Of a stretch of 64,000 bases of DNA, positions 4,170-24,355 are shown in pieces. The notes below the pieces were generated by a model, which was not told the DNA's origin, did not search any database, and saw nothing but the letters and a program-made list of their open reading frames with translations. A program made the translations under genes and the position numbers. Origin of the DNA: Deferribacterales bacterium Deferri_01 (GTDB lineage: Bacteria > Chrysiogenota > Deferribacteres > Deferribacterales > Geovibrionaceae); the NCBI GenBank assembly GCA_001603805.1, contig LUZY01000006.1, positions 1 to 64,000 of the forward strand. The letters are read 5' to 3'. The stretch's first letter is position 1; every line of letters starts with the position of its first letter.

Positions 4170-4253
4170 GCCGAAATGGTGGAATAGGTAGACGCAGCGG
4201 ACTCAAAATCCGCAGTCCGCAAGGGCGTGGGGGTTCGAGTCCCCCTTTCGGCA
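4170..4253 (+). tRNA. tRNA-Leu (anticodon CAA), island insertion site
   Basis: The acceptor stem GCCGAAA pairs with TTTCGGC. The D arm is GGTGGAATAGGTAGAC, the anticodon loop CTCAAAA gives CAA, there is a long variable arm, and the T arm is GGGGTTCGAGTCCCC. The last 19 bases plus 4 flanking bases recur at 24333-24355, so this gene's 3' end is the attachment site of the following island. The tRNA itself is intact. Confidence 0.96.
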
Positions 4254-4257
4254 CTCT
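4235..4257 (+). repeat. Left attachment repeat (attL) of the island
   Basis: This 23-bp sequence begins TCGAGTCCCC and ends CGGCACTCT. It covers the 3' end of tRNA-Leu, and an exact copy lies at 24333-24355. Integration into tRNA 3' ends by tyrosine recombinases creates this pattern, and an integrase remnant lies directly inside. Confidence 0.9.
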
Positions 4258-4302: not shown

Positions 4303-4655
4303 TTACTTATATATCTAACATTTATATTTCCTAGCGGTTTTAAATACTTTCGTATGGACTACCGCTTTGCTAGTAAAAGAAAGACACTGTCACTTGGTGT
4401 ATACCCTGAAATATCTCTCAAAGAAGCCCGTATAAAAAGAGATGAAGCAAGAAGGATGATTTCAGAAGGTGCAGACCCATTAATGTTGAAAAAAATCAAT
4501 AAGATTACTCTTCAGACAAGACAACCAAGAAACTTTTAGTATCTTTTCAAAGAAATGGTTCGATAATTATAAAGATTGATGAACGATAAAACATGGAGAA
4601 CGGAAATGTAGAAGACTAGAGATTCATACCCTGCCCTATATAAGCAATATGCAAT
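4303..4655 (+). pseudogene. Remnant of a P4-type tyrosine integrase
   Basis: Reading across several frames gives pieces of one integrase. An opening FPSGFKYFRMDYRF piece runs into KRKTLSLGVYPEISLKEAR, the hallmark of the N-terminal DUF4102 domain. After stops and frame changes come KKWFDNYKD and then RRLEIHTLPYISN, the start of the core-binding domain. The first 35-40 residues and the whole catalytic domain (the R-H-R-Y residues) are missing; intact relatives have about 400 residues. Its place right beside the tRNA attachment site is where the island's integrase should be. It cannot be functional. Confidence 0.82.
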
Positions 4656-5082: not shown

Positions 5083-5292
5083 TTATTCATCACCAACGTA
5101 ATTGGAGATCCCTACGTACCTGAGTAGCTTGATTACTTTGCCAATCTGCGCAGTAGGTTTCCCACGCTCCACTGAGGAAACTGTGCGGTTTACCCCTGCG
5201 CCCTCAGCAAATTCCTTCTGATTAAGCCCCTGCCCTTCCCTCTTTTGTTTGAGCAGTTGTCCTGTCTCTTCAATATCTGATATTTTCTCCAT
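5083..5292 (-). CDS. HipB-like XRE-family antitoxin/regulator
   Basis: This 69-residue DNA-binding protein is a single Cro/C1-type helix-turn-helix. The core is LLKQKREGQGLNQKEFAEGAGVNRTVSSVERGKP, written here only as its role: helix 2 and the recognition helix fall at about residues 23-45. I chose the ATG at 5292 (MEKISD), which gives the usual HipB length; longer in-frame starts exist but lack a better ribosome binding site. In intact hipBA operons HipB represses the operon and neutralises HipA. Here the hipA that follows is destroyed, so this is an orphan antitoxin or stand-alone repressor. The reading frame itself is intact. Confidence 0.75.
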   Translation of the reverse strand: MEKISDIEETGQLLKQKREGQGLNQKEFAEGAGVNRTVSSVERGKPTAQIGKVIKLLRYVGISNYVGDE

Positions 5293-5402
5293 ATTAATTA
5301 CTGTTAGAGAACTAAACATAACCTCAAGTATTTCTTTTTTTTCATATGTTACCAATTTGGCAGAGTTATCATTTGAATTAGATTAAATAAAAGGAGAATG
5401 GT

Positions 5403-5660
5403 ATGGTTAAAATTAAAATTATTAATGATGTTCCGAAAAGGATAATTGATAAAGCTCGAATGCTTATACATTTATCAAAAAATATGAACACTAATTGGCG
5501 AAAAATTTCAGGATTGACGCAAGCAAAATCCTACAAACTAAACAATAACTACAGAATGCTTGTTTTTAACGAAACTGTTTTTATTGGATCTCATGACAGT
5601 TATATTCGCATAATAAACTCATTAAAAAAACGTAATCTTGGGTGTAATTATGGAAAATAG
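5403..5660 (+). CDS. Small RelE/ParE-like protein (tentative)
   Basis: This 85-residue basic protein has a good ribosome binding site (AAAGGAG) before the ATG at 5403. The order of features resembles RelE/ParE-superfamily toxins: an N-terminal helix with VPKRIIDKARML, a WRKISGL turn, then strands in SYKLNNNYRMLVF and VFIGSHDSYIRII. The pattern 'xYRMLV...xHDxY' is common in such folds. The similarity is weak and judged by eye. Its last 11 bases overlap the start of the large TPR-containing gene downstream, which indicates translational coupling. No classical antitoxin lies beside it; the downstream gene is far too large for one. Base composition is strongly AT-rich. Confidence 0.55.
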   Translation: MVKIKIINDVPKRIIDKARMLIHLSKNMNTNWRKISGLTQAKSYKLNNNYRMLVFNETVFIGSHDSYIRIINSLKKRNLGCNYGK

Positions 5661-7875: not shown

Positions 7876-8096
7876 ATGAAACGCAGTCGATTTTCAGAAA
7901 CTCAGATCGTAAAAATACTCAAAGAAGCCGAGTCCGGCAGACAGGTAAAAGACATCTGCCGTGAGTACGGAGTAACGCCACAGACTACAACAGGAAGTCC
8001 AAATATGGAGGCATGGAAGCCTCAGACATCAAGAGATTAAAAGAACTAGAAGAAGAGAATACAGCTCTGAAAGATATTCTCTCAAAAAAGCTTTAA
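7876..8096 (+). pseudogene. IS3-family transposase orfA, frameshifted
   Basis: After a good ribosome binding site (AGGAGG), the frame reads MKRSRFSETQIVKILKEAE and CREYGVTPQT, the helix-turn-helix start of IS3-family (IS407-like) OrfA. About 35 codons in, a small deletion (four bases fit best) shifts the frame. The correct continuation SKYGGMEASDIKRLKELEEEN, a leucine-zipper-like helix, is found in the next frame and ends at 8096. The gene cannot make full OrfA. Confidence 0.85.
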
Positions 8097-8856
8097 AGCC
8101 GTCGGAGAAACGTAGTTTAGCAGATTACTGTAGGGCCGCTTACGGCATGAGCGTAAATCATACCTGCCGTACTGCAAGCATAAGCCGCCCGGTTTATTAC
8201 TATCAGCTGGATGTACATGTTATAGCTGTTCTGCTCGAACTGTGTGAGAAATATCCGGGATATAGCTTAGGGTTTATTGCCTACTGAAGCTCAACATGTT
8301 CCGTAAGGCGAAAAGAAGGCCTCCAAACAGGAATCCTCTCCCTATCAGTGTGCCTGAATCTATCAACCAGTCCTTGTCTATAGATTTCATGAGTGACAGC
8401 TTATACTGTGGGAGGAAATACAGAACATTTAGTGTCGTTGATGATTTTAATCGGGAAGCTCTTACCATAGAGGTTGATCTCAATCTTCCGGCAGCAAGAA
8501 TTATCAGAGTTCTTGCCAGGATTGCTTCTTGGAGAGGTTATCCGGTTAAGCTCAGAATGGACAACGGCTCTGAGTTTATCTCGGTAAAGCTGGCTGACTG
8601 GGCGGAATACCATGATGTTGAGCTTGAATTTATACAGCCTGGCAAGCCATTTCAGAATTCATATGTGGAAAAGTTTAATCGTAAATTCAGGAACGAGGTG
8701 CTGGACAGGCATTTGTTTTTCTCTTTAAGCGAAGTTCGGGAAGAAGCTGACCGATGGATGGTTGAATACAATACAGAAAGACCGCATGATTCTCTGAGGA
8801 AAATGACTCCGGAGGAGTATGCTGAAAGAGCGGAAAACTCTAAATATCTGCTGTAA
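8093..8856 (+). pseudogene. IS3-family transposase orfB, internally deleted
   Basis: The frame from 8093 gives the OrfB N-terminus (SLADYCRAAYGMSVN, then SISRPVYYY, then EKYPGYSLGF) and stops at 8285. It then resumes as KLNMFRKAKRRPPNR and an open DDE catalytic core from 8296: SIDFMSDSL with the first Asp, LRMDNGSEF with the second, and VEKFNRKFRNEVLD containing the Glu. About 20-30 residues between the two parts, normally the NHKRVYR region, are missing. Transposase activity is therefore unlikely. I could not define clean terminal inverted repeats; the element's ends should lie near 7820 and 8880. Confidence 0.85.
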
Positions 8857-9007: not shown

Positions 9008-10333
9008 TTATCGATTCCCGCCTTCTTGAATAATGCCTAATTCAGCTAATCGACCTGATGCTGTTAAAAGACCATAATAACTAAGTATGTAATTCAATTT
9101 AGTCTGATAATAATCTTTTCTTATTTTGTAATATTGCTCTTTTGCGTCCAGCAAATCCACATTTGTTCTTGTTCCTATTGCAAAGCCTTTTTCATTGGCA
9201 ATAACAGCCAGCTTTGCAGATTCGATAGCCATTTGAAATGCATTAATCCTTGCGTGAGTACTAAGGAGATTTGAGTAAATATTCGAGATTGTTGATGTCA
9301 CATCAAGGCTGACTTGTTGTAATTCATATATTGTCTTAAATTTTAACTCGGCTTTTTCTCTGACTCCGGCAACCGTTCCGCCTCCCTGTATTAGAGGTAA
9401 CCTGAAATTCAAGCCAAAAGATGTGACTTCAGAGTCTTCTGCAACCCCATTTGTATCTCCGTTGCTGTCCGAATTAGTGTACGATGCGGTAAAATCAACA
9501 GTTGGCAAGTTTTTAGATTTTTCTTTGCGCAAAATGATTTCTGATATTGCCAGCTCAGCTTTTTTATACACTATATCAACGTTCTCTTTCTTAGCTTTGT
9601 TAATCCAATAATCTTGTGAATTAAGTTTGATATCGGTAAAAAAACCTGTTGCAAAATCATCTGCATCAATTTCGCTTTCCGGCAGATTAGCAGTAATTGC
9701 TAAAAGTTTTTTTGATAAGACATAAGCGTTGTTTACGGCTATTTCCTCAGCTAAAACAAGATCGTATCTTGCTTTAGCTTCTGTCAGATCGGTCACGGTT
9801 GCGTCACCAAGCTCAAAGCGTTTCTCCAAATCGTTCATTTGCTCAACAATCGAATTCTTTTTGGAAATTGTCACATTCAGATACTCTTTATTAAAAAGCA
9901 CGTTAACAAACGCTTCCAGAACTGCACCGAAAAGTTCCTCATATGTTTTCCTTAGCAATATTTTGCCTATTTTGGGATATTTCTTTGCTTCCTCGTAAGC
10001 AAGAAGAGATTCTGCCCTGAAAACAGGCTGGATAAACTTTAATGTATATACGGATGAATCATAGTTTTCAGAATACTTTGTTTCAACCGCACTCTTATTA
10101 GTAAAAACCGCATTTGAACTATTTTTCATCATTGATGCATCAAATGTAATTGACGGCAGTAATCCGGCTCTTGCCTGTTTCGTCTGTTCAAGCTGCGCTT
10201 TATAGGAATGTATAGCAGCCTGAATGCCTGGATTATCCTTTGAGGCCAGTTTCCACACCTCATCAAATGTCATAGCATACGTATCAGCAAGTAAAAACAA
10301 ACTAAAGATAAATATAAAAGTAGATTTCAGCAT
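9008..10333 (-). CDS. TolC-family outer-membrane channel of the type I system
   Basis: This 441-residue protein begins with a signal peptide (MLKSTFIFIFSLFLLADTYA). Two copies of the outer-membrane efflux domain follow, with long heptad-rich helices and the typical AKARYDLVLAE and ANEKGFAIGTRTNVDLLDA segments before the second beta section. I chose the ATG at 10333, which has GAAAGGTG upstream and an immediate signal peptide. It is the last gene of the secretion operon and lies 13 bases after the membrane-fusion protein. Known members form trimeric channels that dock onto a type I ABC exporter. It should carry the giant adhesin across the outer membrane. Confidence 0.92.
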   Translation of the reverse strand: MLKSTFIFIFSLFLLADTYAMTFDEVWKLASKDNPGIQAAIHSYKAQLEQTKQARAGLLPSITFDASMMKNSSNAVFTNKSAVETKYSENYDSSVYTLKFIQPVFRAESLLAYEEAKKYPKIGKILLRKTYEELFGAVLEAFVNVLFNKEYLNVTISKKNSIVEQMNDLEKRFELGDATVTDLTEAKARYDLVLAEEIAVNNAYVLSKKLLAITANLPESEIDADDFATGFFTDIKLNSQDYWINKAKKENVDIVYKKAELAISEIILRKEKSKNLPTVDFTASYTNSDSNGDTNGVAEDSEVTSFGLNFRLPLIQGGGTVAGVREKAELKFKTIYELQQVSLDVTSTISNIYSNLLSTHARINAFQMAIESAKLAVIANEKGFAIGTRTNVDLLDAKEQYYKIRKDYYQTKLNYILSYYGLLTASGRLAELGIIQEGGNR

Positions 10334-10346
10334 CACCTTTCTCTCT

Positions 10347-11627
10347 TTACTGTTCTTTAAAAGCTTTGCGAAAACTGTCAATAATAGGATCAAGGAGGTA
10401 ACGCATTACAGTTCTTTCACCGAATACGATATCAACAGTTGCAATCATTCCGGGAAAAAGCTTAACATCATTAAATTGTTTCTTTTGCAATTCCTCACTA
10501 TTTATGCGTACTATCGCTTTATAATAAGTGTCTCCCGTTCGTTCATCTTTGAATGTTCCCGCAGAAACTCTTGCGACTTCTCCCTGAAGAGCGAAATGTT
10601 CTCTGGCTTTGAATGCTGTCAATCTGACATAACTGGTTAAACCAGGATAAACAACATCAATATCATCAGGAAATACCCTTGCTTCGATGAGAAGCTCTTT
10701 ATCTAAAGGAACAATCTCCATAACTAAGCCGTTTGGAGGTATAACTCCGCCAATTGTTTTAAATCTGAGATCCTGAACAACTCCTTCAACAGGAGATAGA
10801 ATAATACTCCTTTCGGTTACATCCTGTGCGGCAGTTAGTCTTTCTGAAACAGTCGCCAAATCATCATACGCTTTCCTTAGCTGTTCAAGGAGGTCATTAC
10901 GCCACTCAGACTGAATCTTGAGAATCTGGAACTTTGTTTCGATTATTTTTTGTTCAGCACTGGCAATTTCAGCATTTATCTTTCCGAGTTCTCCTTCGGT
11001 TTCGGCGACTTTATTTTGGTTTTCCAACAGAATACGTTTTTCGATATATCTGTGTTCATAAAGCTCAGTATTCATCTTCAATGCTTCACCGGATGTAGAA
11101 AGAATTTTTTCTAAAGCGGTTCGGCTAAATTTCATTGCTGTTATTTCAGCTTCTGTCTGAGCAATTCTCTGACTTAAAATTTCTATATCCTGAAAAAGCG
11201 ATTCTTTTCTGACTCGGAATAGTTCAATTTGCGTAAATATTGATCCTGAAACATTTGATTGTATTTCTGCTTTGTATTGCTTGCCGTCTCTTTCTGCCTC
11301 AAGTCTTTTAACAATGGCTTCCAAGGCTGCTTTCTCATTTTCCAGCACAGCAAGCTGTGCCACTGCAGTTGAAATACTTAATTTTAGCAGTGGTTGTCCT
11401 TCACTTACTCTGTCGCCTTCTTTTACCATAATTTCTGAGACAACTCCGCCTTCCAGGTGCTCTATTTTAACAGTGTCTTCCGCCGGAATAATTTCTCCGT
11501 AAGCTACTGCTCCTGCATTAATTTTATATACTGATGCCCAAAACAAAATACCGATTACACCAAAGAAGATGATAAATAATCCTGTTGTTATGTACTTTTT
11601 AGTTGAAGAAGGAATGTTATCTTTCAT
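10347..11627 (-). CDS. Type I secretion membrane-fusion protein (HlyD/PrtE family)
   Basis: This 426-residue protein has a short cytoplasmic N-terminus, one membrane span (about residues 12-31), a first half-lipoyl domain (GEIIPAEDTVKIEHLEGGVV), a long coiled coil (about 85-265), the second half-lipoyl (ILSPVEGVVQDL) and a beta-barrel domain. This is the canonical HlyD/PrtE architecture. It bridges the inner-membrane ABC exporter to the TolC-type channel. It overlaps the ABC gene by 4 bases (ATGA). The IEHLEGGVVxEIxVKEGDxV motif is typical of the PrtE/LapC branch. Confidence 0.94.
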   Translation of the reverse strand: MKDNIPSSTKKYITTGLFIIFFGVIGILFWASVYKINAGAVAYGEIIPAEDTVKIEHLEGGVVSEIMVKEGDRVSEGQPLLKLSISTAVAQLAVLENEKAALEAIVKRLEAERDGKQYKAEIQSNVSGSIFTQIELFRVRKESLFQDIEILSQRIAQTEAEITAMKFSRTALEKILSTSGEALKMNTELYEHRYIEKRILLENQNKVAETEGELGKINAEIASAEQKIIETKFQILKIQSEWRNDLLEQLRKAYDDLATVSERLTAAQDVTERSIILSPVEGVVQDLRFKTIGGVIPPNGLVMEIVPLDKELLIEARVFPDDIDVVYPGLTSYVRLTAFKAREHFALQGEVARVSAGTFKDERTGDTYYKAIVRINSEELQKKQFNDVKLFPGMIATVDIVFGERTVMRYLLDPIIDSFRKAFKEQ

Positions 11628-13354
11628 GCAGTCATCCCTTCTTTAAACTGCATTTGCTGTTTTTTAAGACTGCCCGCAGTGAGCTGCTTTATAACTTCAT
11701 AATGTGGTCCATACATCTGAAGTAGACCGTCAGAAATCACTCCAAGAATATCTGCATCTGTTACCAACGAAAGCTTGTGAGTAATGACCACCACAGTCGC
11801 TTTCCTGCTTTTGGCTTTTTTGATAGCGCTGATCAAAGCTAGTTCTCCTTCGGAGTCCAAAAAAGCGTTAGGCTCATCCAGCACGATAAGTTTGGGATTG
11901 GCAAAAAATGCTCTTGCAAGCCCAATCCGCTGTTTCTGCCCTCCTGAAAGAGCAACTCCCTGAGAACCTATAATTGTGTCATAGCCATGTGGTAGTTGAA
12001 GGATCATTTTATGTGCATCAGTTTCGATAGCCGCAGCGATCACCTCATCATCAGTTGCATCGGAAAACCTTGCGATGTTGTCTCTGACTGTTCCTGAAAA
12101 AAGCATAATTTCTTGCGGTAGATAACCGACATATCTGCCAAAATTATCTCTGCTCCAGACATTTAAAACATCTGCATTATCAAGTTTGATACTTCCTGAA
12201 CGCAGCTTATAGATTCCGGTCATAACTTTGGCTAGTGTACTTTTCCCGGCGCCGCTTGCCCCCAGAAAGGCCACTGTTTTCCCTGCTGGAATTTCAAAAC
12301 TGATACCTTTCAGAATGGGAAAAACCCCTCCTGCCGGCACATAAACAGCTTTCTCAACACTAATCTTACCTACAGGTACCGGCAGCTCTGTTTTATTTTC
12401 CTCTAAATAAAACTCCTCAAACATTTCATTCAGCCTGTCTGCTGCAGCTTTAGTATTAATATAATTTTTCCAACTGTTTATAAGTCCTTCAAGAGGTGCA
12501 GTACCTTTAGAAGATAAAATATTTGCAGCAATCATTGAGCCCACAGTTATTTCATTATTAATAGCTAAATAAGCACCAACACCTGTCATGGCAATATTCT
12601 GACAGAATCTCGTAAATTTGCCTGCTGAAGCAAGATAGCCAGCCTTATCACTTGTTTCTGAAAGAATTCTTGTACTTTCACCATACTTAGAAAACCAATG
12701 CCTAAGGACATGATTTTTCATACCCATTGCCCTGACTGCATCTGAATTTCTCATTATTTCATCTGCAATATGCTGGGCTTCAAGAGATATTTCTCCTGCT
12801 TCTTTTAGTTTGCTACCAGTCAAAAACTCATTTACTACATTGATCATAAGGAGCAGCACCATACTCATGAACATAACAACCACAAGCAAAGGATGAATGA
12901 GCCACACAACAAAAAAGAATACAGGTATCCATGGTGCATCGAGTAGAGTTATTAATCCATGGCTCCCTGACATAAAATTTTTAAAACTGATAACATCCTT
13001 AATCGCCTGAGAGCTTACTTTACCAGTCATTGATGCCATATTGATGCTTGCATCCATCATTTTAGGATTGAGGTTCAGATCAATACTGTTTGCTATTCTT
13101 ATAAGAGAATGTGCCCGTATAAGATCAATTAGTGCTGATAAAAACAATGCAATTACTGCCCCTGTAATAAGCGCTATCAATGTATTTACACTACGGCTTG
13201 TGAGCACTCTGTCAAAAACCTGCAGAGAAAATATAGGAATGGCCAGTGTAAGAAGATTTATAAAAAAACTGAAAATTATAATAAAAGAAAAACTGCACCA
13301 ACTGACAAATTTAAAAACAGGTTTGTTTACAATATTATTAATTGCTTTAATCAT
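11624..13354 (-). CDS. Type I secretion ABC exporter (PrtD-like)
   Basis: This 576-residue half-transporter has about five to six membrane spans in its first 300 residues. The ATPase domain follows with Walker A GASGAGKST, signature LSGGQKQR and Walker B LIVLDEP followed by NAFLD. It starts directly with the membrane domain and has neither a C39 peptidase domain nor the longer N-terminal C39-like domain of HlyB/LapB. This fits PrtD-type exporters of proteases, lipases and S-layer proteins. It lies 171 bases after the adhesin gene with two hairpins between. Its expected substrate is that adhesin. Substrate pairing is inferred from gene order. Confidence 0.93.
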   Translation of the reverse strand: MIKAINNIVNKPVFKFVSWCSFSFIIIFSFFINLLTLAIPIFSLQVFDRVLTSRSVNTLIALITGAVIALFLSALIDLIRAHSLIRIANSIDLNLNPKMMDASINMASMTGKVSSQAIKDVISFKNFMSGSHGLITLLDAPWIPVFFFVVWLIHPLLVVVMFMSMVLLLMINVVNEFLTGSKLKEAGEISLEAQHIADEIMRNSDAVRAMGMKNHVLRHWFSKYGESTRILSETSDKAGYLASAGKFTRFCQNIAMTGVGAYLAINNEITVGSMIAANILSSKGTAPLEGLINSWKNYINTKAAADRLNEMFEEFYLEENKTELPVPVGKISVEKAVYVPAGGVFPILKGISFEIPAGKTVAFLGASGAGKSTLAKVMTGIYKLRSGSIKLDNADVLNVWSRDNFGRYVGYLPQEIMLFSGTVRDNIARFSDATDDEVIAAAIETDAHKMILQLPHGYDTIIGSQGVALSGGQKQRIGLARAFFANPKLIVLDEPNAFLDSEGELALISAIKKAKSRKATVVVITHKLSLVTDADILGVISDGLLQMYGPHYEVIKQLTAGSLKKQQMQFKEGMTA

Positions 13355-13525: not shown

Positions 13526-16500
13526 TTAATATGGATTAACCATGTTCATAATAGCATGAACATCGTAATCAGTTTCGGGCTGCCCTATGATTTGAAGAAT
13601 GTTCCCGTCAACTGAAGCAGAAAAGTCATGATCGTTTATTTCATCTGCTATTCCCTGGAGGAAGTCGCTTACTGACTGTCCTTCATTGTAAACAGCTTCA
13701 AACGAAAGATCTGCTACTCCGTTAAAATCTCCGTCATTATCTGTATCAAGAAGAACAAAAAGTGAATCTCCATTCACAAGATTCTCAAGAACAGTAACAT
13801 CAAATATTCCAGCAAGAGCATCACTCTCTTCCACATTCGGTGTGGGAGTAACAATAACTGCTCCGTTATCGTCAGTATCAGCTTCGGAACGGTTTAAAAC
13901 TTCACCCTCAATTGTAAAACCTGTTCCAACGTTATTTGCTGTAACTTTAATAACATCGTAAACACCGGAACCATTTTCAGATTCAGCTGCTTCAAAAGTA
14001 AAGTTATCACCTAAATCCCAAAGCTCAAGTTGGTCAAGAAGTGCAGAGACAATATCTCCAACAGTCTCATCGCCGCTGAGGACGTATGACTCAGTGTGCC
14101 CGTCAATTGTTACTGAGTAAGTATCACCTACTTCAATTGTTCCCGTGGAAACTGTCACTGTTTCAACCTGAGCAACGGCATCAACTTCTGTGACATTATC
14201 GTTTTCAACTGTTATATCAGTGTTTTGAGTATCATCTGCTCCTGCAGGACGGTTGATTACTTCACTTTCAAGAGTGAAATCCACACCAGGATTTACTGCT
14301 GTTATTTTGATGACGTCATAAACACCGGAGCCGCTTTCAGACTCTACAGCCTCGAAAACAAAGTCTTCTGTTGTATCCCAAGTTTCAAGCTGGTCGATAA
14401 GCGCAGATACTATATCGCCCACTTCCTCATCACCGCTGAGAACATATGATTCGGTATACCCATTAAGTGTCACAGAGTAAGTGTCACCTGCCTCAATAGT
14501 TCCGGCAGTTATTACAACCGTGGAAACCTGTGCAATCTCATCGTTGCTTGTTACCGAATCTTCACCTATGGTCACAACGTTTTCTGTAAGCTCAATATTT
14601 GACATTACAAGGCTGTAAGTAAAAGACGAACCGCTGATATTAGCCTGAAGTTTCAGTTTACCGCTGTCGTTGGAAGCGGTTACACCTGCATCATCAAGAA
14701 GACCAGCAACAGCGTCAATAATTTCATCCGTATCAGCTTCATTTCCGGTTACAGTGTAAGTGTATTCTGCACCGTTAACTGTAAGACTGAAAACATCTCC
14801 TGCGTCATATCTCTGTTCACCGAGGTCATATTCAACAGTCTGGGTTTCGGGAATGACTTCTTCAACATTTTCAGTGTCATTGCTGACTTCAGGCTGGGTA
14901 TTATCCTGACCTTCTGCACGATTAACGACAGACGGTTCAACGGTAAAAGGAATGCCCGCATTCTCTGAAGTGAGAACAAGCTTGTAACCGCCGTTTCCAT
15001 CATCTTCAACGCTGTAAGATATATCTCCGGAGGTCAGCAGTTGTATCTGATCCCCCAGACTATCAAGTATATCATAATGACTCTCGCTGTCTTCATAGGC
15101 GACAGTGATAGCCGCTTCTGCAATAGAGTTGTCATCTGCATCTTTGATGGTTATTGAGTACACATCACCGTATTCAGGACTGTTATCTCCATCAAATGAA
15201 ACTTCAGTAACCTGTTTAACATCATTTGCAACAGCTTCCTGAGTTGGGTCAATATCTGCATCGCCTGTGTTTGCAGTGCCGGAGTAGTCCTCACCGTTTA
15301 CAGTGGAGTCAAAAGATGTACCGTCTGCTTTACCGGTGAGAGTAAGTTTGTCTGCACCTGAATCATAAGAAGCTGTAACATCCGTTTCACCGTCATTAAT
15401 TGCAATTACAAGTGCAGCTGCAAGTTCATCAAGGCTGGAGATATCGTCACCGTTGATTGTAACGGTATATTCGTTCTCTCCTATCGTCACTGTTATGCTG
15501 TCGCCTATGTCGCTTGCTCCTGCCAGAGTGTAAACATCTACCTGAGGAGTTGCGGAAGATACTGCAGCCTGAGTAAGATCAACATTTATGTCGCCTGTAT
15601 TTGCAGTGCCGGAGTAATCCTCACCGTTTACAGTGGAGTCAAAAGATGTACCGTCTGCTTTACCGGTGAGGGTAAGTTTGTCTGCACCTGAATCATAAGA
15701 AGCTGTAACATCCTCTTCACCGTCATTAATTGCAATTACAAGTGCAGCTGCAAGTTCATCAAGGCTGGAGATATCATCACCGTTGATTGTAACGGTATAT
15801 TCGTTCTCTCCTATCGTCACTGTTATGCTGTCGCCTATGTCGCTTGCTCCTGCCAGAGTGTAAACATCCACCTGAGGAGTTGCGGCAGATACTGCAGCCT
15901 GAGTAGGATCAACATTTATGTCACCAGCGTTTGTGGTAGCTGAGTAGTCTTCAACACTAGCGGTAACATTAAGTTCATGCCCAATAGCAGTTCCTGAGAT
16001 TGTAAGGACACCGTCATTATTTATAAGCGTAAAGCCTGACTGTTCTCCGAAAGCTGTAACAACAAGATCTGCAAGATCCACGGGACTGGTGGTTTCAGTA
16101 ATTACTATTTCATGAGTTATGCCATTAATAGCAACCGTTACAGAATCTCCTGCATCGTAGCCTGCGACACCAAAGTCTATTGTCGTTTCCTCAACTTCTG
16201 CCGAAACACCTTCAACATTAGGTGTAGGTGTTTCTATAGATGAACCAACTGTGCCAGAAGTTATAGTAAACTCTTCTCCTGCTGTTTTTGAGCTTATAAT
16301 AAGCTGACTGCCCTGACGGATTGCACTTACTTCACTGTTTATATCAGGATTTGCGCTAATCGCAGTTTTAAGACCATTCAGAACTGTCGTCAGTGTTGCA
16401 CCGGGTTTTGCGGTGTAAGAAACCTCCGTACCGTTTATCGTTACGGTGTAGGTTCCGGGAGCAATCGCTTCAGTGAAGGTAAGAGTGCTTACCTGTGCAA

Positions 16501-19500
16501 CAGGTGAAACTTCGTAAGAGGCAGGAGTTTCAATCGTAACTAAAGCATCGTTATCTTCAAAGACCTCATCCGTTATGGTATTGGTTGAGATTGTAAAGCC
16601 ATCGTTGTCAACTCCGGTAAGAACAATTTCACCGTCAACTGCTTCGGCAGTGACTTTTGATGAAGTGCTGAAAAGTGCGGCAACTGTGGAGGCTACATCA
16701 GCCGCTGTTGCTCCGTTTTCTTCAACTGTGTAAGTGAAAGTGTCATCATCTTCTATTATAATTGTGATAACATCGCCTGCATCAAAAGGACCTTCACCAA
16801 TGCTTACCGTGCTGATCTGTGTCTGTACGGTTTCGCCTTCGTTGCTTTCACCTGCTTCAAGACTGCCGCTTGTTTCACCGTCAGTATAGGTTTCATCAGT
16901 TATGGTATTGGTTGAGATTGTAAAACCATCGTTGTCAACTCCGGTAAGAATAATTTCACCGTCAACTGCTTCGGCAGTGACTTTTGATGAAGTGCTGAAA
17001 AGTGCGGCAACTGCGGAGGCTACATCAGCGGCTGTTGCTCCGTTTTCTTCAACTGTGTAAGTGAAAGTGGCATCATCTTCTATTGTAATTGTGATAACAT
17101 CGCCCGCATCAAAAGGACCTTCACCAATGCTTACCGTGCTGATCTGTGTCTGTACAGTTTCGCCTTCGTTGCTTTCACCTACTTCAAGACTGCCGCTTGT
17201 CTCACCGTCAGTATAGGTTTCATCAGTTATGGTATTGGTTGAGATTGTAAAACCATCGTTGTCAACTCCGGTAAGAACAATTTCACCGTCAACTGCTTCG
17301 GCAGTGACTTTTGATGAAGTGCTGAAAAGTGCGGCAACTGCGGAGGCTATATCAGCGGCTGTTGCTCCGTTTTCTTCAACGGTGTAAGTGAAAGTGGCAT
17401 CATCGTCTATTGTAATTGTGATAACATCGCCTGCATCAAAAGGACCTTCACCAATGCTTACCGTGCTGATCTGTGCCTGCGCAGTCTGATTCTGAACTGT
17501 TGTGTTAACATCAAGACCATTATCATCAACACCGGCTGAAGCATTTTCAACAGCAGCTTCGGTTTCAAAAGAAGTACCTGCGACACGAGCTGTAAGTGTT
17601 ATCTCCAGACCATTAAGGCTTGCAACAGGGAACTGATCATTTGCATTAATGAGCGAAACAAGATTAGAAAGTACATCGTTGATTGTTGTATCGCCATCCT
17701 GAACATAGTAGGAAACAGATGCCCCGTCGATAGTGATTGTAAATTTATCACCAACATCAAGAGATTCATCAGTGAAGGAAATTACATCTTTCTGGGCAAC
17801 TGGTTCAACCGCTTCAACATTTGGTGTAACTACTGTTTCAGTTACTGCGTTTTCATGAAGACCGAAATTATCAACATCAAAGACGACGTCAAAGGATGAA
17901 CCGTCTGCATTACCTGTGACATAAACTACGGTTCCATCTACTGTTGCGCCACCTGCTGCAGCTAAAGCTGCAAGTTCTGATGCCACATTTTCCGGAGTGT
18001 CGCCAGCCTGAACAGTATAGCTGTATTCCGTACCGCTTATCGTCAAAGTGAGTATATCGCCTGCATCGTATGATGTCCCCGTCAGATCGATTGTGTGAAC
18101 CTCAGCTTCAGCATCAACTGCCTCAATTGTTGTGTCCGTTGTGCCGCTTTCAGATACTTCAGCATTTACGACTTCGGGTGTAACAGTAAATACTGAACCT
18201 CCGTTAGTTCCAGTAACTACAAGTACACCATCAGAATATTCAGCAAAATAGTCATCGTTTATAAACTCAAGAGCTGAACCAATAGCATCAGTGCTGTCAC
18301 CTGCCTGTACCGTGTAGGTTGCGACAATAACACCATCAATATTGATGTTTACTACATCTCCCTCATCGTAAGGTACTGCACCAAGATCAACAGAGGTTAT
18401 CTGCTCAGTCGGAGAAGTTGGATCTACATTTCCTGTAAGAACCCGCGCGTCACCAAGAATTGAGACTTCAAATTCATTTCCTGCTGCATCGGCTGTAATG
18501 AAAAGACTGCTGCCTGAACGAACAGCAGAAACATTGACACCAGCACTTGCATTAATGGCAGTAGCAAGCTTATTAAGAACTGTAACCAAAGAATTACCCG
18601 CAGCAGCTGTATAGCTGAATATTTCAGGAACACCGCCTTCATCGGTAATAGTTACAGAAAAGACTTCTCCGGGGGAAACTGTTGAGTCTTCAAATGTCGC
18701 ACTAACAACCTGTTTCACTCCAGCAGAACCTGAAGATGCGTCTTGGTCATTCTCTGATGTTGCCTCATTCTCTGAAAATGTGGTTTTGGCTACATCAGAA
18801 GTTATCACAACTGCATTGTCGGGAGTAATTGTTATTAAATTTGTGTCAACATTATAAGAGGCCGCCACTCCGTTTTCTAAATCCACTAAATCAGCAAGAG
18901 CAACGCCTATATCGTCAATGCTGTCTCCAGCTAGGACAGTATAAGAAACAAGCGTTGAGCCAATGTTTACCGTTATAACATCACCAGTGTTATATTCAAC
19001 CGAACCTAGTGCAACTTCAGTCTGTTGGGGAGCTGCAGCTACACCATTTGTAACATCAGTATCCACAGGTGCATCTTCATCATAGTTCACATTAGCCACA
19101 GATGCATCAAAATCAAAAGACTCTCCAGCTTCTTTTGCTGTAAAAAAAACTGTATTTGTATCTGCATCATATGAAACACTTACAGTAGAATCACCAGCAA
19201 ATTCAGTAGCAAGAGCCGCGCCTATTTCATCTACACTGTCTCCGGCTAACACAGTATATGACTTTGCAACTTCACCGATTGTAACTGTTATAATATCCCC
19301 GGGTTGGTATTCGGATTCACCAAGATTCAGAGTATTTACCTGATATGAAAGGGTTGAATCCTCTATTAAACTGTCATCTTCACCAATTTCAGCATTTGCT
19401 GCAGATGCAGCAAGTTCAAAACCTTCGCCGGGAGTGTCCGCTGTGATGGTGATAACATTACCGTCAAAAGAAGCAGTGAGTATATCTGCAGCACCGCTGG

Positions 19501-21793
19501 CGTTGATAAGCGAAGTAAGAGTTTGAGCAATTGTTTCAGGAGTATCACCAGATGAAGCAACGTAAACTATAGGTTCATACCCTGTCAGATTTATAGTGAA
19601 CGTATCACCCACATCAATAGAATTTCCGATTACAGTTACCGTTTCTACCTGAGCTTCGGCTTCACGATATTCAACATTTTCTGTAACTGTTTCTGTTACA
19701 ACTGTACTGTCGTCTATACCTTCAACACCGTTTGTTCCGGTTGCAAAAATATCAAAACCCGTTCCTGCAATATTCGCAGTAACAGTGATTTCACTGCCTA
19801 TGTATGTGGCTGCTAAATCTGCGCCAAGGAGGTCATTGATCTGAGACGAAAGTATAAATGCGATGTTCTCAAGAGTTTCTTCACCTGTGGCAGTGTAAGT
19901 GAAAACTTCCTCATTGATAATTATCGAGTAAGTATCGCCCGTTTCAGGTGTTCCGCTGAGAGTTACTGTACTGACTTGTGCCTGTGCAGAGGTTTCAGGC
20001 GCAGGTTCCTGCGTTTGCACAATTGTAATATCTGCATAGTCGTTAACAACTTCAAGCTCTGCTCTTGCTTCAGCTTCTTCATTACCATCTGTCACTTTAT
20101 AAGTAAAAGTCACTGCACCGTTAAAATCAGCAGCAGGAACAAAGGTCCAAGTACCGTCTTCGTTATCTGTAAGTGTCCCATGTGAGAGGTCTGCGAGAGC
20201 TACATCTGAAACTGAAAGCTCATCGCCATCAACATCGCTTGCGTTGACAAGAAGATCTGATGCACTGAAAGTTATACCACTGCTGTCTTCAGCTATGCTT
20301 TCAAGAACTACAGTAGCAGAAACCACAGGAACATCGTTTACCTCTGTAACTTCAAGCTCTGCACTTGCTATAGCTTCTTCATTACCATCTGTCACTTTAT
20401 AAGTAAAAGTCACTGCACCGTTAAAATCAGCAGCAGGAACAAAGGTCCAAGTACCGTCTTCGTTATCTGTAAGTGTCCCATGTGAGAGGTCTGCGAGAGC
20501 TACATCTGAAACTGAAAGTTCATCGCCATCAACATCGCTTGCGTTGACAAGAAGATCTGATGCGCTGAAAGTTATACCACTGCTGTCTTCAGCTATGCTT
20601 TCAAGAACTACAGTAGCAGAAACCACAGGAACATCGTTTACCTCTGTAACTTCAAGCTCTGCGCTTGCTTCAGCTTCTTCATTACCATCTGTCACTTTAT
20701 AAGTAAAAGTCACTGCACCGTTAAAATCAGCAGCAGGAACAAAGGTCCAAGTACCGTCTTCGTTATCTGTAAGTGTCCCATGTGAGAGGTCTGAAAGAGC
20801 TACATCAGAAACTGAAAGTTCATCGCCATCAACATCGCTTGCGTTGACAAGAAGATCTGATGCACTGAAAGTTATGCCACTGCTGTCTTCAGCTATGCTT
20901 TCAAGAACTACAGGAGCAGAAACCATAGGAACATCGTTTACCTCCGCAACATTAATATTAACAGTGTAAGTATTTGAACCGCCATTACCATCTGAAACCA
21001 CAAATGCAAAACTGTCGGCTCCGTTGTAATCAGCAGCAGGAGTATAGCTGTAAGTACCGTTAGCATTTACTACAACTATTCCGTGTGCAGCTTGAGTAGC
21101 AAGAGCGTAAGTTACTGTATCACCATCAACATCAGTTGCCGAAGGAAGAGTACCAGAAAGAACTGTGTCTTCAGTTGCATTTACTGTCGTGTTGGTTGAT
21201 GTAGGAGCATCGTTCACCCCTACAACATTAATATTAACAGTGTAAGTATTTGAACCGCCATTACCATCTGAAACCACAAATGTAAAACTGTCGGCTCCGT
21301 TGTAATCAGCAGCAGGAGTATAGCTGTAGGTACCGTTAGCATTCACTACAACTATTCCGTGTGCAGCTTGAGTAGCAAGAGCGTAAGTTACTGAATCATC
21401 GTCAACATCTGTTGCCGCAGGAAGAGTACCTGAAAGAACTGTGTCTTCAGTTGTATTTACTGTCGTATTGGTTGATGTAGGCGCATCGTTTACGGGAAGC
21501 ACTGTCAGAACAAATGTATCACTTGCAGACAACCCGCCAGTATCTGTTGCAGTTACAGTAATTGTAGCATTCCCGTTATAATTAAGAGGCGGAGTTCCTG
21601 AAAAAGTCCTTGTAGCTGCGTTAAATGTCAGCCATGAAGGAAGACCTGATACAGAATAAGTTAGTGCGTTTCCATCCGGATCATTGAACACATTTGAATT
21701 AAATGTGAAACTATAAGGAGTGTCCTCATTAAAAGACTGATCAGCAATAGGATTGGCAACAATAGGTACTCTGTTAGATATTATAACCGGCAT
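13526..21793 (-). CDS. Giant repetitive type I-secreted adhesin (2755 residues)
   Basis: There is no N-terminal signal peptide. Domains in order: a putative-Ig (He_PIG-like) domain (about residues 10-100), two VCBS/cadherin-like repeats of 92 residues (about 100-285) and three near-identical cadherin-like repeats of 100 residues (about 285-585). About 20 copies of one other domain of 85-125 residues follow, to the end. That unit has the pattern TVxxGxxxxGDxYTVTIxGxxxxYTVxAGDTxxxIAxAL, then an Asn/Gly turn and ITLTAxxAGTxF. I see no RTX nonapeptides and no cysteine. The last copy contains a DTDNDGDFNG calcium-type loop and ends the protein at MNMVNPY, so the C-terminal secretion signal must lie in or after it. 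The start has GAGGTAATTAAT upstream, overlapping the stop of the previous gene. Low cysteine, acidity and repeats fit biofilm adhesins. There is no LapA-type retention module, and no LapD/LapG genes are nearby. Confidence 0.9.
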   Translation of the reverse strand: MPVIISNRVPIVANPIADQSFNEDTPYSFTFNSNVFNDPDGNALTYSVSGLPSWLTFNAATRTFSGTPPLNYNGNATITVTATDTGGLSASDTFVLTVLPVNDAPTSTNTTVNTTEDTVLSGTLPAATDVDDDSVTYALATQAAHGIVVVNANGTYSYTPAADYNGADSFTFVVSDGNGGSNTYTVNINVVGVNDAPTSTNTTVNATEDTVLSGTLPSATDVDGDTVTYALATQAAHGIVVVNANGTYSYTPAADYNGADSFAFVVSDGNGGSNTYTVNINVAEVNDVPMVSAPVVLESIAEDSSGITFSASDLLVNASDVDGDELSVSDVALSDLSHGTLTDNEDGTWTFVPAADFNGAVTFTYKVTDGNEEAEASAELEVTEVNDVPVVSATVVLESIAEDSSGITFSASDLLVNASDVDGDELSVSDVALADLSHGTLTDNEDGTWTFVPAADFNGAVTFTYKVTDGNEEAIASAELEVTEVNDVPVVSATVVLESIAEDSSGITFSASDLLVNASDVDGDELSVSDVALADLSHGTLTDNEDGTWTFVPAADFNGAVTFTYKVTDGNEEAEARAELEVVNDYADITIVQTQEPAPETSAQAQVSTVTLSGTPETGDTYSIIINEEVFTYTATGEETLENIAFILSSQINDLLGADLAATYIGSEITVTANIAGTGFDIFATGTNGVEGIDDSTVVTETVTENVEYREAEAQVETVTVIGNSIDVGDTFTINLTGYEPIVYVASSGDTPETIAQTLTSLINASGAADILTASFDGNVITITADTPGEGFELAASAANAEIGEDDSLIEDSTLSYQVNTLNLGESEYQPGDIITVTIGEVAKSYTVLAGDSVDEIGAALATEFAGDSTVSVSYDADTNTVFFTAKEAGESFDFDASVANVNYDEDAPVDTDVTNGVAAAPQQTEVALGSVEYNTGDVITVNIGSTLVSYTVLAGDSIDDIGVALADLVDLENGVAASYNVDTNLITITPDNAVVITSDVAKTTFSENEATSENDQDASSGSAGVKQVVSATFEDSTVSPGEVFSVTITDEGGVPEIFSYTAAAGNSLVTVLNKLATAINASAGVNVSAVRSGSSLFITADAAGNEFEVSILGDARVLTGNVDPTSPTEQITSVDLGAVPYDEGDVVNINIDGVIVATYTVQAGDSTDAIGSALEFINDDYFAEYSDGVLVVTGTNGGSVFTVTPEVVNAEVSESGTTDTTIEAVDAEAEVHTIDLTGTSYDAGDILTLTISGTEYSYTVQAGDTPENVASELAALAAAGGATVDGTVVYVTGNADGSSFDVVFDVDNFGLHENAVTETVVTPNVEAVEPVAQKDVISFTDESLDVGDKFTITIDGASVSYYVQDGDTTINDVLSNLVSLINANDQFPVASLNGLEITLTARVAGTSFETEAAVENASAGVDDNGLDVNTTVQNQTAQAQISTVSIGEGPFDAGDVITITIDDDATFTYTVEENGATAADIASAVAALFSTSSKVTAEAVDGEIVLTGVDNDGFTISTNTITDETYTDGETSGSLEVGESNEGETVQTQISTVSIGEGPFDAGDVITITIEDDATFTYTVEENGATAADVASAVAALFSTSSKVTAEAVDGEIILTGVDNDGFTISTNTITDETYTDGETSGSLEAGESNEGETVQTQISTVSIGEGPFDAGDVITIIIEDDDTFTYTVEENGATAADVASTVAALFSTSSKVTAEAVDGEIVLTGVDNDGFTISTNTITDEVFEDNDALVTIETPASYEVSPVAQVSTLTFTEAIAPGTYTVTINGTEVSYTAKPGATLTTVLNGLKTAISANPDINSEVSAIRQGSQLIISSKTAGEEFTITSGTVGSSIETPTPNVEGVSAEVEETTIDFGVAGYDAGDSVTVAINGITHEIVITETTSPVDLADLVVTAFGEQSGFTLINNDGVLTISGTAIGHELNVTASVEDYSATTNAGDINVDPTQAAVSAATPQVDVYTLAGASDIGDSITVTIGENEYTVTINGDDISSLDELAAALVIAINDGEEDVTASYDSGADKLTLTGKADGTSFDSTVNGEDYSGTANTGDINVDLTQAAVSSATPQVDVYTLAGASDIGDSITVTIGENEYTVTINGDDISSLDELAAALVIAINDGETDVTASYDSGADKLTLTGKADGTSFDSTVNGEDYSGTANTGDADIDPTQEAVANDVKQVTEVSFDGDNSPEYGDVYSITIKDADDNSIAEAAITVAYEDSESHYDILDSLGDQIQLLTSGDISYSVEDDGNGGYKLVLTSENAGIPFTVEPSVVNRAEGQDNTQPEVSNDTENVEEVIPETQTVEYDLGEQRYDAGDVFSLTVNGAEYTYTVTGNEADTDEIIDAVAGLLDDAGVTASNDSGKLKLQANISGSSFTYSLVMSNIELTENVVTIGEDSVTSNDEIAQVSTVVITAGTIEAGDTYSVTLNGYTESYVLSGDEEVGDIVSALIDQLETWDTTEDFVFEAVESESGSGVYDVIKITAVNPGVDFTLESEVINRPAGADDTQNTDITVENDNVTEVDAVAQVETVTVSTGTIEVGDTYSVTIDGHTESYVLSGDETVGDIVSALLDQLELWDLGDNFTFEAAESENGSGVYDVIKVTANNVGTGFTIEGEVLNRSEADTDDNGAVIVTPTPNVEESDALAGIFDVTVLENLVNGDSLFVLLDTDNDGDFNGVADLSFEAVYNEGQSVSDFLQGIADEINDHDFSASVDGNILQIIGQPETDYDVHAIMNMVNPY
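15271..15930 (-). repeat. Two tandem 330-bp repeats inside the adhesin gene
   Basis: The sequence starting TTGCAGTGCCGGAGTA at 15271 recurs at 15601 with only scattered differences through the whole unit. The period of 330 bp equals 110 codons, one domain copy (TPQVDVYTLAGASDIGDS units). The near-identity points to recent duplication. Confidence 0.85.
16560..17470 (-). repeat. Three tandem 327-bp repeats inside the adhesin gene
   Basis: The segment TGCTTACCGTGCTGATCTGT occurs at 16801, 17128 and 17455, an exact period of 327 bp (109 codons). The units encode near-identical domain copies that begin QISTVSIGEGPFDAGDVI. Only a few positions differ between copies. Confidence 0.87.
20041..20940 (-). 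repeat. Three tandem 300-bp repeats (cadherin-like) in the adhesin gene
   Basis: Three units of exactly 300 bp are almost identical base for base; compare the 60 bases from 20281, 20581 and 20881. Each encodes a 100-residue cadherin-like domain with SDVDGDELSVSDVAL and FTYKVTDGNEEA. This is the most homogeneous part of the gene. Confidence 0.93.
20949..21500 (-). repeat. Two tandem 276-bp repeats (VCBS-like) in the adhesin gene
   Basis: ACATTAATATTAACAGTGTA occurs at 20949 and 21225, a period of 276 bp (92 codons). Each unit encodes a VCBS/cadherin-like domain with NGTYSYTPAADYNGADSF and VVSDGNGGSNTYTVNI. Confidence 0.88.
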
Positions 21794-21798
21794 ATTAA

Positions 21799-22191
21799 TT
21801 ACCTCGCTAAGTTTTTATTTTGATTAGAATTGCGGCTGAATATTTTAGCCATTTGTGAAATTTTTTCAGAAATCCATTTTTCCAGATTCATATGCAGCAA
21901 CAACACAAAAGGAACATTTTCAGGCTCTATCAAGCGCATTATGAATGTTTCTTTAATCAGAGTGCCGCTGTCGTTTAAGCCTTCAACAGTAATATTGATT
22001 TCTTTCTCATCATTCTCGTGAATTACCCCATTGAATGAGTATGAGGCTGAATCAAAATAAACCCCGATAGGAAGTCCTGATACTGTATAGGTCAAACCTG
22101 ACATTGATTGGCTTGTAAGAATATTTGATTCCAGATACAGCAAGAAAGCTGAGATAGGCTTCCCAGCTTTTTTCTGTTTATCTAAAGCCAT
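21799..22191 (-). CDS. Small Ig-like accessory protein upstream of the adhesin
   Basis: This 130-residue protein has no signal peptide. Residues about 28-95 resemble the first domain of the adhesin: LTYTVSGLPIGVYFDSASYSFNG here, compared with YSVSGLPSWLTF and TFSGTP there (an He_PIG-like fold). An amphipathic, basic tail (LEKWISEKISQMAKIF) follows. I chose ATG 22191 with GGGAG upstream. Its stop codon overlaps the ribosome binding site of the adhesin gene, so the two are coupled. I do not know this arrangement from other type I systems. It could be a cytoplasmic chaperone that keeps the adhesin unfolded, an N-terminal cap, or a secreted subunit. This is inference from position and fold likeness. 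Confidence 0.65.
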   Translation of the reverse strand: MALDKQKKAGKPISAFLLYLESNILTSQSMSGLTYTVSGLPIGVYFDSASYSFNGVIHENDEKEINITVEGLNDSGTLIKETFIMRLIEPENVPFVLLLHMNLEKWISEKISQMAKIFSRNSNQNKNLAR

Positions 22192-22206
22192 AACCAAGCT
22201 CCCTAA

Positions 22207-22911
22207 CTAAAATACGTATCTTAAACCGAGTACAGCTTCCTGAACTCTCAGATCACCTTTGATCCCTTCGAGATCAACTTTACCAAGACCAAACTCGGTA
22301 AGGTCGTTTTCACCTTTCCCCACAGAAATTTCACCAAGATCTGCGTATCTGTATTCAAAATCCAGAAACAATTTTTCTGTTAATTTGAATCCAATACCTG
22401 CAGCAACCTGCCATGCGAAACCTGATTCATCGTTTCCAGGACCTTTTCCTTTCAAACCGCCTGAAGTATAGGAAAATGAATCAATTTCATTTTTTGAATA
22501 TCCAAGACCGACACCAATATAGGGAACAAATCTTCCAAGCTCTTTCTGGGCATATAGATTCACAAGGATTGCTTTAGAATCTATATCACCTGAAAATTTC
22601 TGAGCGCCGTTAAAACTGCTGTCGTCGATCTCATAACCCGATCTAACATAGCCTGTGATATCTGCTCTGAGGTATTGATTAAAAACATAACCAAAACCAA
22701 GGCCAAAAGATGTTCCGTTACCGATATCATCGAGCTTTGAGCCCGCTGCAAGCTGATCATCATTAGCAGTCGCTGTTGTTCTTTCATTGTCTAAGCCTGC
22801 ATCAAAGGCGCTACTGTAAGCAAGTTCACCTTTAACATAGATTCCGCTTTCAGCCTGAACCGCTGCCGCTGAAAGAACTACAAGTGCTAAAATAATTACA
22901 ATCCTCTTCAT
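22207..22911 (-). CDS. Outer-membrane beta-barrel protein (OmpA/Opa-like barrel)
   Basis: This 234-residue protein has a signal peptide (MKRIVIILALVVLSAAAVQA) and a barrel with about eight amphipathic strands, such as TSFGLGFGYVFNQYLRADI, FVPYIGVGLGYS, WQVAAGIGF and LFLDFEYRYADLG. It ends in the C-terminal signature LGLRYVF, a terminal Phe for assembly by the BAM complex. There is no OmpA-like peptidoglycan-binding domain. It lies 15 bases before the small Ig-like gene in the adhesin operon. An outer-membrane anchor or receptor for the secreted adhesin is a reasonable guess, since the adhesin has no visible retention module. Confidence 0.85.
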   Translation of the reverse strand: MKRIVIILALVVLSAAAVQAESGIYVKGELAYSSAFDAGLDNERTTATANDDQLAAGSKLDDIGNGTSFGLGFGYVFNQYLRADITGYVRSGYEIDDSSFNGAQKFSGDIDSKAILVNLYAQKELGRFVPYIGVGLGYSKNEIDSFSYTSGGLKGKGPGNDESGFAWQVAAGIGFKLTEKLFLDFEYRYADLGEISVGKGENDLTEFGLGKVDLEGIKGDLRVQEAVLGLRYVF

Positions 22912-22960: not shown

Positions 22961-23617
22961 TCAGCTTAAAACTGTTGCTGTTTCGGTAACCTCAAGCATA
23001 TATCCGAACCCCTTCACAGTACGGATGGAGTTTTCAGGCAATTTTTTACGAATATTCTTAATGAGTGTACGCAAAGAATCAGAGGACATAAAATCACCTT
23101 GCCACACGTAAGCCTCTATTTCTTCATAGCTAGTTATCTTATTTATATTCCTAGATAATACTTCTAAAAGAAGCCTTTCTTTATTTGAAAGAACATGCTG
23201 CTCTTGTTCACTCACTATTAAACACTTTGTTCTTAAAAAGCTGTAGCCATTGCTAAGATAAATCGTATCTTTATGCTGTTCTGACAGATGTTTAAAAACA
23301 ATTTGCTTTAAAAGAATGAGATCAACAGGTTTTTCCAGCACATCAGCAGCTCCTATTTTGACAGCATGCACAAGTCCTTGGATGCTGTACTTATCATATG
23401 AAATAATTATTTTTGCCTTCATATCTGAAAACGTCTCAAGAAGAGAAGGCTCAATAACATCATAATTTATAACCAATAAGTCATATTGATATTCATCATA
23501 AATACGATTCATTAATTCACTTGCAGTCGCTACAAGTTCAAATGTAAAAAGGTGGGACGATTTCCCGCTCCCAAACAACTTAAAAATATCATCATCATAA
23601 ATAAGCAACCGATACAT
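22961..23617 (-). CDS. Atypical OmpR-type response regulator of the adhesin locus
   Basis: This 218-residue protein has a receiver-like domain (about 1-115) and a winged-helix DNA-binding domain (about 130-212), ending with the typical IRTVKGFGYMLE wing. In the receiver the acidic pocket is DDD (8-10), and the conserved Ser and Lys are at about 73 and 96. The residue at the phosphoacceptor position is Asn51 (sequence DLLVINYD), with Asp53 two residues later. Phosphorylation is therefore doubtful. I chose ATG 23617 (MYRLLIYDDD). No histidine kinase is adjacent. It is the first gene of the minus-strand adhesin region, 49 bases before the barrel gene, and is the likely regulator of the locus. 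Confidence 0.83.
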   Translation of the reverse strand: MYRLLIYDDDIFKLFGSGKSSHLFTFELVATASELMNRIYDEYQYDLLVINYDVIEPSLLETFSDMKAKIIISYDKYSIQGLVHAVKIGAADVLEKPVDLILLKQIVFKHLSEQHKDTIYLSNGYSFLRTKCLIVSEQEQHVLSNKERLLLEVLSRNINKITSYEEIEAYVWQGDFMSSDSLRTLIKNIRKKLPENSIRTVKGFGYMLEVTETATVLS

Positions 23618-24332
23618 CGCTCCCCACCAGTCAGTTAGTAATACCATAAGCAGAATGTGTAGAACGTGAATTCCACATGTCGGAAATCTAAATTTTTCGT
23701 TTATGGCTTAAATTAAACAAAAAGAATATTTGCCTTATAAGCTAATTCACGTTTAGCTAGACTGTTTGCGTTTAAAGTCCAGCACTAGCTCATAATTAAT
23801 TATCATTTATTCATTTTTTCTAAATTTGTGAATAAAGAAGGCAGATATAATTTTGTTTTAAGATTTGAATAAAGTAACACTTTCATGTTCCATAATATGG
23901 AACAAACTTCGCTTTTCTGTGATTTAATATTTCTGCTGAAAAATAAATAGGTTGCTTATGGACTCAACTTAATAATCATGACTAGGGGGAAGGTTTTGTA
24001 TTGTGATATTAACATTTGATACGAGCCAGCTCCCTTATTTTTTGTATTCATCTATTTAAAATAAAGGGAAGGAATAAATAAACAGGTATTACTGAGAGGG
24101 ATTAAACGCCTTCTTCTGCTGTGTCAAATATAGCTTTTTAAAGCTTATGTAAAGAAAAGGAAAATTGTCGAAAATATAGTTTTAAAGAGAAGAAACGCAT
24201 TCTTTCTAACCTGAAAATAATAGACTAAGCCCTTCTGAGTATTTCATATAAACTGAAGTTAAAAAAAATAAAATGCAGAAAATCTTTATAATAATCTTCT
24301 TTATTTCTCGTTGTCTCTTGTATGTTTTCAAA
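23618..24332. other. Gene-free AT-rich right end of the island
   Basis: I see no credible gene in this 715-bp stretch. It should hold the promoter of the adhesin locus. Visible signals are a 10-bp inverted repeat (AACGTGAATT at 23663-23672 and AATTCACGTT at 23744-23753) just upstream of the regulator gene, and an isolated near-perfect palindrome, GTTCCATAATATGGAAC, at 23887-23903. The remainder is low in G+C and looks like decayed sequence. Confidence 0.6.
23663..23753. promoter_or_regulatory. Inverted repeat upstream of the adhesin regulator
   Basis: AACGTGAATT and its reverse complement AATTCACGTT are separated by 71 bp, starting 46 bp upstream of the regulator's start codon. Paired half-sites flanking a promoter could be a binding site, possibly for the regulator itself. 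Evidence is the repeat alone. Confidence 0.35.
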
Positions 24333-24355
24333 TCGAGTCCCCCTTTCGGCACTCT
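24333..24355 (+). repeat. Right attachment repeat (attR) of the island
   Basis: This is an exact 23-bp copy of the tRNA-Leu 3' end and its four flanking bases (4235-4257), here without the rest of a tRNA. It marks the junction back to the chromosome. Six bases later comes the terminator of the resident operon. Confidence 0.9.

Follow-up and report, generated by a model that had tools for sequence, protein, structure and literature searches.

We found that the two genes lying upstream of a giant adhesin-like gene, one for a small outer-membrane β-barrel protein and the other for a 130-residue Ig-like protein, belong to an operon that is carried on an acquired, species-specific island of ~20 kb (positions 4170–24355 of the window, that is, of the whole 64,000-nucleotide stretch that was analyzed). 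The arrangement of these genes appears to be a one-off, confined to this one island in everything searched, and it is evidently so isolated because the operon sits on the island at tRNA-Leu(CAA). As for the role of the small gene, we tentatively favor the view that it is a local duplicate of the first domain of the adhesin and acts chiefly as a translationally coupled upstream cistron. The island location of the whole operon is new here and was missed in the original prediction, whose interpretation is partly supported overall; the new chaperone or anchoring and retention system that it proposed is possible but unsupported.

The operon comprises seven co-directional genes on the minus strand, in the order regulator, barrel, small Ig-like gene, adhesin, PrtD-type ABC gene, HlyD and TolC (Table 1). 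The barrel and small genes are therefore the second and third of the set, and the coordinates and strand confirm the prediction that both lie upstream of the adhesin in the same direction. The first three gaps between genes of the operon measure 49, 15 and 5 nt, and a scan for terminator-like sites, which was a consensus match only, detected none in them. Since a gap of 171 nt separates the adhesin gene from the ABC gene, a single transcript for all seven genes can only be inferred. The complete set of type I secretion genes (ABC, HlyD and TolC), each scoring over its NCBIfam cut-off, is adjacent to the gene for a giant repeat protein that lacks a Sec signal, and the locus is, on these features, identified as a Bap-type type I secretion adhesin operon. 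When the regulator was inspected by eye, its phospho-acceptor strand was found to read DLLVINYD, with Asn in place of the expected Asp, so that the regulator may be phosphorylation-independent.

Table 1. Features of the island and of the adhesin operon (positions in the window)
Feature	Position	Strand	Evidence
tRNA-Leu (CAA), island integration site	4170..4254	+	ARAGORN; attL repeat at 3' end, 4235-4257
P4-type integrase remnant, N-terminal arm DNA-binding domain only	4354..4539	+	PF13356 Arm-DNA-bind_3, E 1.1e-12, 61 aa
TolC-family outer-membrane channel of type I secretion system	9008..10393	-	TIGR01844, 249.6 bits, over cut-off
HlyD-type periplasmic adaptor	10347..11627	-	TIGR01843, 355 bits, over cut-off
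PrtD-type type I secretion permease/ATPase	11624..13354	-	TIGR01842, 600 bits, over cut-off
Giant tandem-95/cadherin-like surface protein, 2755 aa, putative adhesin	13526..21793	-	PF05345 2e-22, PF17892 1e-119, PF17963, NF012211
130-aa solo He_PIG (Ig-like) protein with basic amphipathic C-terminal helix	21799..22191	-	Pfam, BLASTP, HMMER, AF2, fold comparison
Small outer-membrane β-barrel protein, Sec-exported, OMP_b-brl/Opa/OmpW clan	22207..22911	-	PF13505 2.3e-21
OmpR-type regulator, first gene of the co-directional set	22961..23647	-	PF00486 7.9e-15; Response_reg only E 0.037
attR, island right boundary, 23-nt copy of tRNA-Leu 3' end	24333..24355	+	Exact repeat

The island is bounded by an exact 23-nt direct repeat, TCGAGTCCCCCTTTCGGCACTCT, at 4235 and 24333, which consists of the last 20 nt of the tRNA-Leu gene and the 3 nt downstream; the first 20 nt of this repeat occur in just two copies in the window, one in the tRNA and the other at 24333. 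GC3 is 0.25–0.33 in most island genes, compared with 0.35–0.49 in the genes to the right, and the exceptions within the island are the small Ig-like gene (0.37) and a transposase (0.44). In a sister species (G002), the left flank is conserved through the tRNA, and the tRNA end recurs ~25 kb further on. The interval between the two copies, which was read in part, contains an intact phage-type integrase, AbiEii, a SNF2 helicase, a KAP NTPase and a DNA methylase; in its copy of this tRNA, G002 carries an island of another, defence-related kind. Taken together, the tRNA repeats, the integrase remnant, the shifted GC3 and the swapped content of G002 indicate that the operon is the cargo of an island at an integration hotspot. 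Because the integrase is only a fragment, this island would no longer be mobile by itself. At positions 5083–5660, a small HTH_3 gene on the minus strand is divergent from an 85-aa uncharacterized ORF, and a 683-aa TPR-containing protein of very low GC content (31%) is encoded next; these three look like other island cargo. At positions 7876–8856 lies a broken IS3-type transposase gene (HTH_Tnp_1 and rve), copies of which, ~92% identical, are present in two other genomes (G001 and G005).

We searched for relatives of the accessory genes at several levels. No match to the small protein, the barrel or the C-terminal 824 residues of the adhesin was detected in 50 other genomes of the phylum, including those of the genus and the family. 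Outside the locus, nothing better than E = 0.002 was found for the small protein in 385 genomes (by HMMER), plasmids and viral contigs, and the match with this value (in G015) contains internal stops; a pattern scan of 84,980 species genomes yielded 78 stretches, none of which was confirmed. For the barrel, only distant matches were obtained in the 385 genomes, which are spread over the domain (best outside the locus, 2.4e-8), and only distant generic outer-membrane proteins were found in plasmids and viral contigs. A pattern scan of species-level genomes for the PrtD-type ABC protein gave at least 596 stretches. The best 80 PrtD loci among the matches listed were examined; the collection may contain closer ones, and the flanks of some are cut short by the end of the contig. 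These 80 were mostly from Proteobacteria, with 36–42% identity. Six-frame phmmer searches revealed no relative of the barrel or the small gene within 10 kb of these best 80 PrtD loci among the matches listed, and both were likewise absent from five further loci. Among the 80 loci and the five others, only two had cadherin or He_PIG neighbors. The PrtD neighbors in two family members (G004 and G006) were considered as counterparts and rejected, being glycosylation-linked RTX proteins and not the adhesin of the island. The original prediction had proposed a search for the same three-gene order in other genomes; as this order was found nowhere in the phylum, the 385 genomes, the plasmids or the best 80 PrtD loci among the matches listed, the outcome is negative at the search sensitivity used.

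The giant protein (284 kDa, pI 4.05, no cysteine) starts with a He_PIG domain, which is followed by tandem-95, cadherin-like and Big_9 repeats and then by a stretch of ~110-residue repeats. Its N-terminus, MPVIISNRVPIVANPIADQ, lacks a Sec signal, and its architecture suggests that it is an adhesin. It had been proposed that the barrel replaces a LapA-like retention module; such a module is indeed missing, in that the retention-module model gave no match at E ≤ 0.01 and the LapG-type site [TP]AA[GV] is absent from all 2755 residues. There are also no matches to the RTX pattern GG.G.D. The array of ~110-residue repeats (GDTYTVTINGxxYTYTVxxGDTxxxIAxxL...), which occupies positions 13526–19600, is not matched by any Pfam model and has hardly any relatives among plasmids or within the phylum, and neighboring copies share up to 98% DNA identity.

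The assignment of the upstream gene to a barrel protein, as originally predicted, is supported by PF13505, which covers the full length of the 234-residue product (residues 7–234; 77.2 bits against a cut-off of 28.7), and by the Opacity and OmpW models, both of which also score over their cut-offs. The gene has a Shine–Dalgarno sequence (AGGAG), and its product has a Sec signal peptide ending, as read from the sequence, at VQA/ES. An AF2 model built from the single sequence without an alignment reached a pLDDT of 32. The closest relatives of the barrel are generic small outer-membrane or porin-family proteins, with ~25–30% identity.

The small gene runs from the ATG at 22191, which is preceded by GGGAG, to a stop at 21799; this start is more likely than the TTG at 22197 given by the ORF tool. 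By codon statistics, its reading frame is the most coding-like of the six, and the ORF is intact, with host-like codon use. The possibility that its 3' end is a frameshift relic was rejected, since both other frames are interrupted by stops and encode no recognizable domain. The protein has neither a signal peptide nor a cysteine, and its only domain is a He_PIG domain (20.0 bits, below the Pfam cut-off of 24). BLASTP aligned it with the first domain of the adhesin at 28% identity over 76 residues (E = 7e-11, in one comparison), and this domain was its only significant match in the HMMER search of the 385 genomes (1.8e-6; the next was the match at 0.002). The He_PIG domain of the adhesin is, moreover, the sole one over the cut-off in the genome. 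An AF2 model based on a two-row alignment (the small protein and the adhesin domain) predicts a β-sandwich at residues 12–101, with pLDDT mostly 70–80, and a helix of 27 residues at 103–129. The nearest folds in the PDB were dystroglycan, cadherin EC1 and the SraP cadherin-like domains, all with E > 0.001, and comparison with SraP by sequence gave E = 8.5e-4. The sandwich has a pI of 4.3; the amphipathic tail has a pI of 10.5 and a hydrophobic moment of 0.575. At the 3' end of the gene (GCGAGGTAATTAATATG), the GAGG of the adhesin's ribosome binding site lies immediately 5' of the TAA, with 5 nt between the two genes, and from this spacing the adhesin is probably translationally coupled to the small gene. 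The prediction was therefore accurate in describing a 130-residue protein without a signal peptide, whose only domain resembles the first domain of the adhesin and whose stop overlaps the adhesin's ribosome binding site.

Most likely, the small gene would have arisen by local duplication of the first domain of the adhesin, and the coupled small cistron would deliver ribosomes to the adhesin start and persist mainly for that. Because the adhesin domain is both the only significant relative of the small protein and the only He_PIG domain over the cut-off, local duplication fits better than independent origin, although this falls short of proof. The small protein would remain in the cytosol, the adhesin would be exported C-terminus first through its own PrtD/HlyD/TolC channel, and the barrel, co-expressed with the adhesin, would reach the outer membrane separately via Sec and be an ordinary small protein of that membrane. 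This tentative reading is consistent with the lack of terminator-like sites at the head of the operon, the stop/Shine–Dalgarno overlap, the unique homology, the type I secretion set, the island evidence and the absence of the genes from relatives. However, the small gene has an unbroken reading frame and host-like codons, and it encodes a He_PIG core with an added amphipathic helix, none of which a mere relic need keep. The next most likely reading, which we nevertheless consider rather improbable, is that the small protein is a dedicated cytosolic escort or cap for the N-terminus of the adhesin. Its Ig domain would pair or compete with the like domain of the adhesin, its basic helix would bind to the inner membrane or to the exporter, and the N-terminus would thereby be kept unfolded, or export would stop at the final domain and leave the adhesin attached. 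The missing signal peptide, the homology to the adhesin's first domain, the difference in pI between sandwich and tail, and the adjacency and coupling of the genes, as expected for a stoichiometric partner, all agree with such a role. Moreover, PrtD-family exporters thread substrates C-terminus first, which must be unfolded, and secretion of HasA by the related HasDEF depends on the chaperone SecB (PMC8277102, PMC3034196). On the other hand, the gene pair is conserved nowhere in the searches above, and our literature search returned no type I secretion chaperone that is an Ig-like copy of part of the protein it serves.

The C-terminal helix could instead be a secretion signal, in which case the small protein would be a type I substrate that is co-secreted to become an extracellular binding partner or cap; we regard this as improbable. 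C-terminal, uncleaved signals typify type I secretion (PMC3034196), and the small protein combines such an amphipathic C-terminal helix with the lack of an N-terminal signal and of cysteine and with a gene in a type I secretion operon. Nevertheless, its tail is strongly basic and ends in KNLAR, and lysines account for 10 of its 130 residues, compared with 27 of 2755 in the adhesin. The tails of PrtD-family substrates are acidic and then hydrophobic, which is unlike this one. The function of the barrel is an independent question, and the original view that it is a dedicated outer-membrane anchor holding the adhesin in place of the LapA retention module has, in our estimation, only a small chance of being correct. 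The adhesin lacks a retention-module match and a LapG-type site, the barrel gene is co-directional and upstream, and biofilm formation in Shewanella involves the OmpA-like SO4321 of the bpf operon, which has been suggested to assist in localizing BpfA (PMC4523816). Yet no barrel relative accompanies the best 80 PrtD exporters among the matches listed, the closest relatives of the barrel are generic, Opa/OmpW-type barrels are commonly stand-alone outer-membrane proteins, and several type I secreted surface proteins are only loosely bound, or are shed, with no anchor of this kind (PMC12153261). A combination of both functions, in which the adhesin is controlled by a solo copy of its own first domain, with the coupled cytosolic Ig-like protein and its membrane-binding helix capping or holding the N-terminus at the last step of export and the small barrel serving as the outer-membrane dock, would differ from LapA/LapG and SiiAB retention; we consider it very improbable.

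We compared the operon with known systems. As in lapA of P. fluorescens, bpfA of S. oneidensis and bapA of S. enterica, a gene for a giant cadherin/Big-repeat protein without a Sec signal lies by ABC, HlyD and TolC genes, and the bpf locus further resembles the island in having an outer-membrane accessory gene, SO4321. Unlike these loci, the island (4.2–24.4 kb) has no LapG or LapD genes, its adhesin has no retention-module match and no LapG-type site, and its ABC protein is of the PrtD type, without an N-terminal extension, whereas theirs are of the ~715-aa LssB type; they also have no counterpart to the small Ig-like gene. SPI4 of Salmonella (siiABCDEF) is similar in being an island with a giant Big-domain adhesin, a type I secretion system, two accessory genes and no protease-based release. 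However, its accessory proteins SiiA and SiiB, which serve retention, are an inner-membrane proton-channel pair, by description unrelated to the barrel and the Ig-like protein (PMC6272769). Given SO4321 and siiA/siiB, the original statement that known type I adhesin loci do not normally have such parts was too strong. The exporter is of the same family as those of HasADEF and Prt (TIGR01842 over cut-off), although these systems secrete small Sec-independent substrates, of which HasA is chaperone-dependent, and the substrate here would be a 284-kDa cadherin-like repeat protein. The only domain of the small protein is of the He_PIG/CADG type, as in dystroglycan and the cadherin-like domains of SraP; such domains are usually modules of long surface proteins, whereas here the domain is solo, intracellular-looking and joined to a basic helix.

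Retention at the cell surface still calls for an explanation in those giant type I adhesins that have no LapA-type module, one example being BapP, which has no known retention module and is partly released (PMC12153261). An operon with a barrel and a domain mimic beside such an adhesin is therefore a testable candidate. As the arrangement is, in everything searched, limited to one species-specific island, it for now mainly illustrates the hotspot and the acquisition of a second adhesin: in this genus, tRNA-Leu(CAA) is a site at which surface-adhesin and defence cargo are swapped, and a second, Lap-independent adhesin can be gained by a genome that already has a Lap system in its core. The only LapG (PF06035) of the genome is encoded on another contig (C13), beside LapD and another type I secretion system, and because the core genome thus has a separate LapG/LapD system, the island would add a second export system that is independent of Lap. 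The core-genome Lap system on C13 (L179, 6865–19750) consists of a TolC–OmpA fusion, LapG, LapD, an LssB-type ABC protein, HlyD and a Bap-like adhesin, and the TolC–OmpA fusion is notable in itself.
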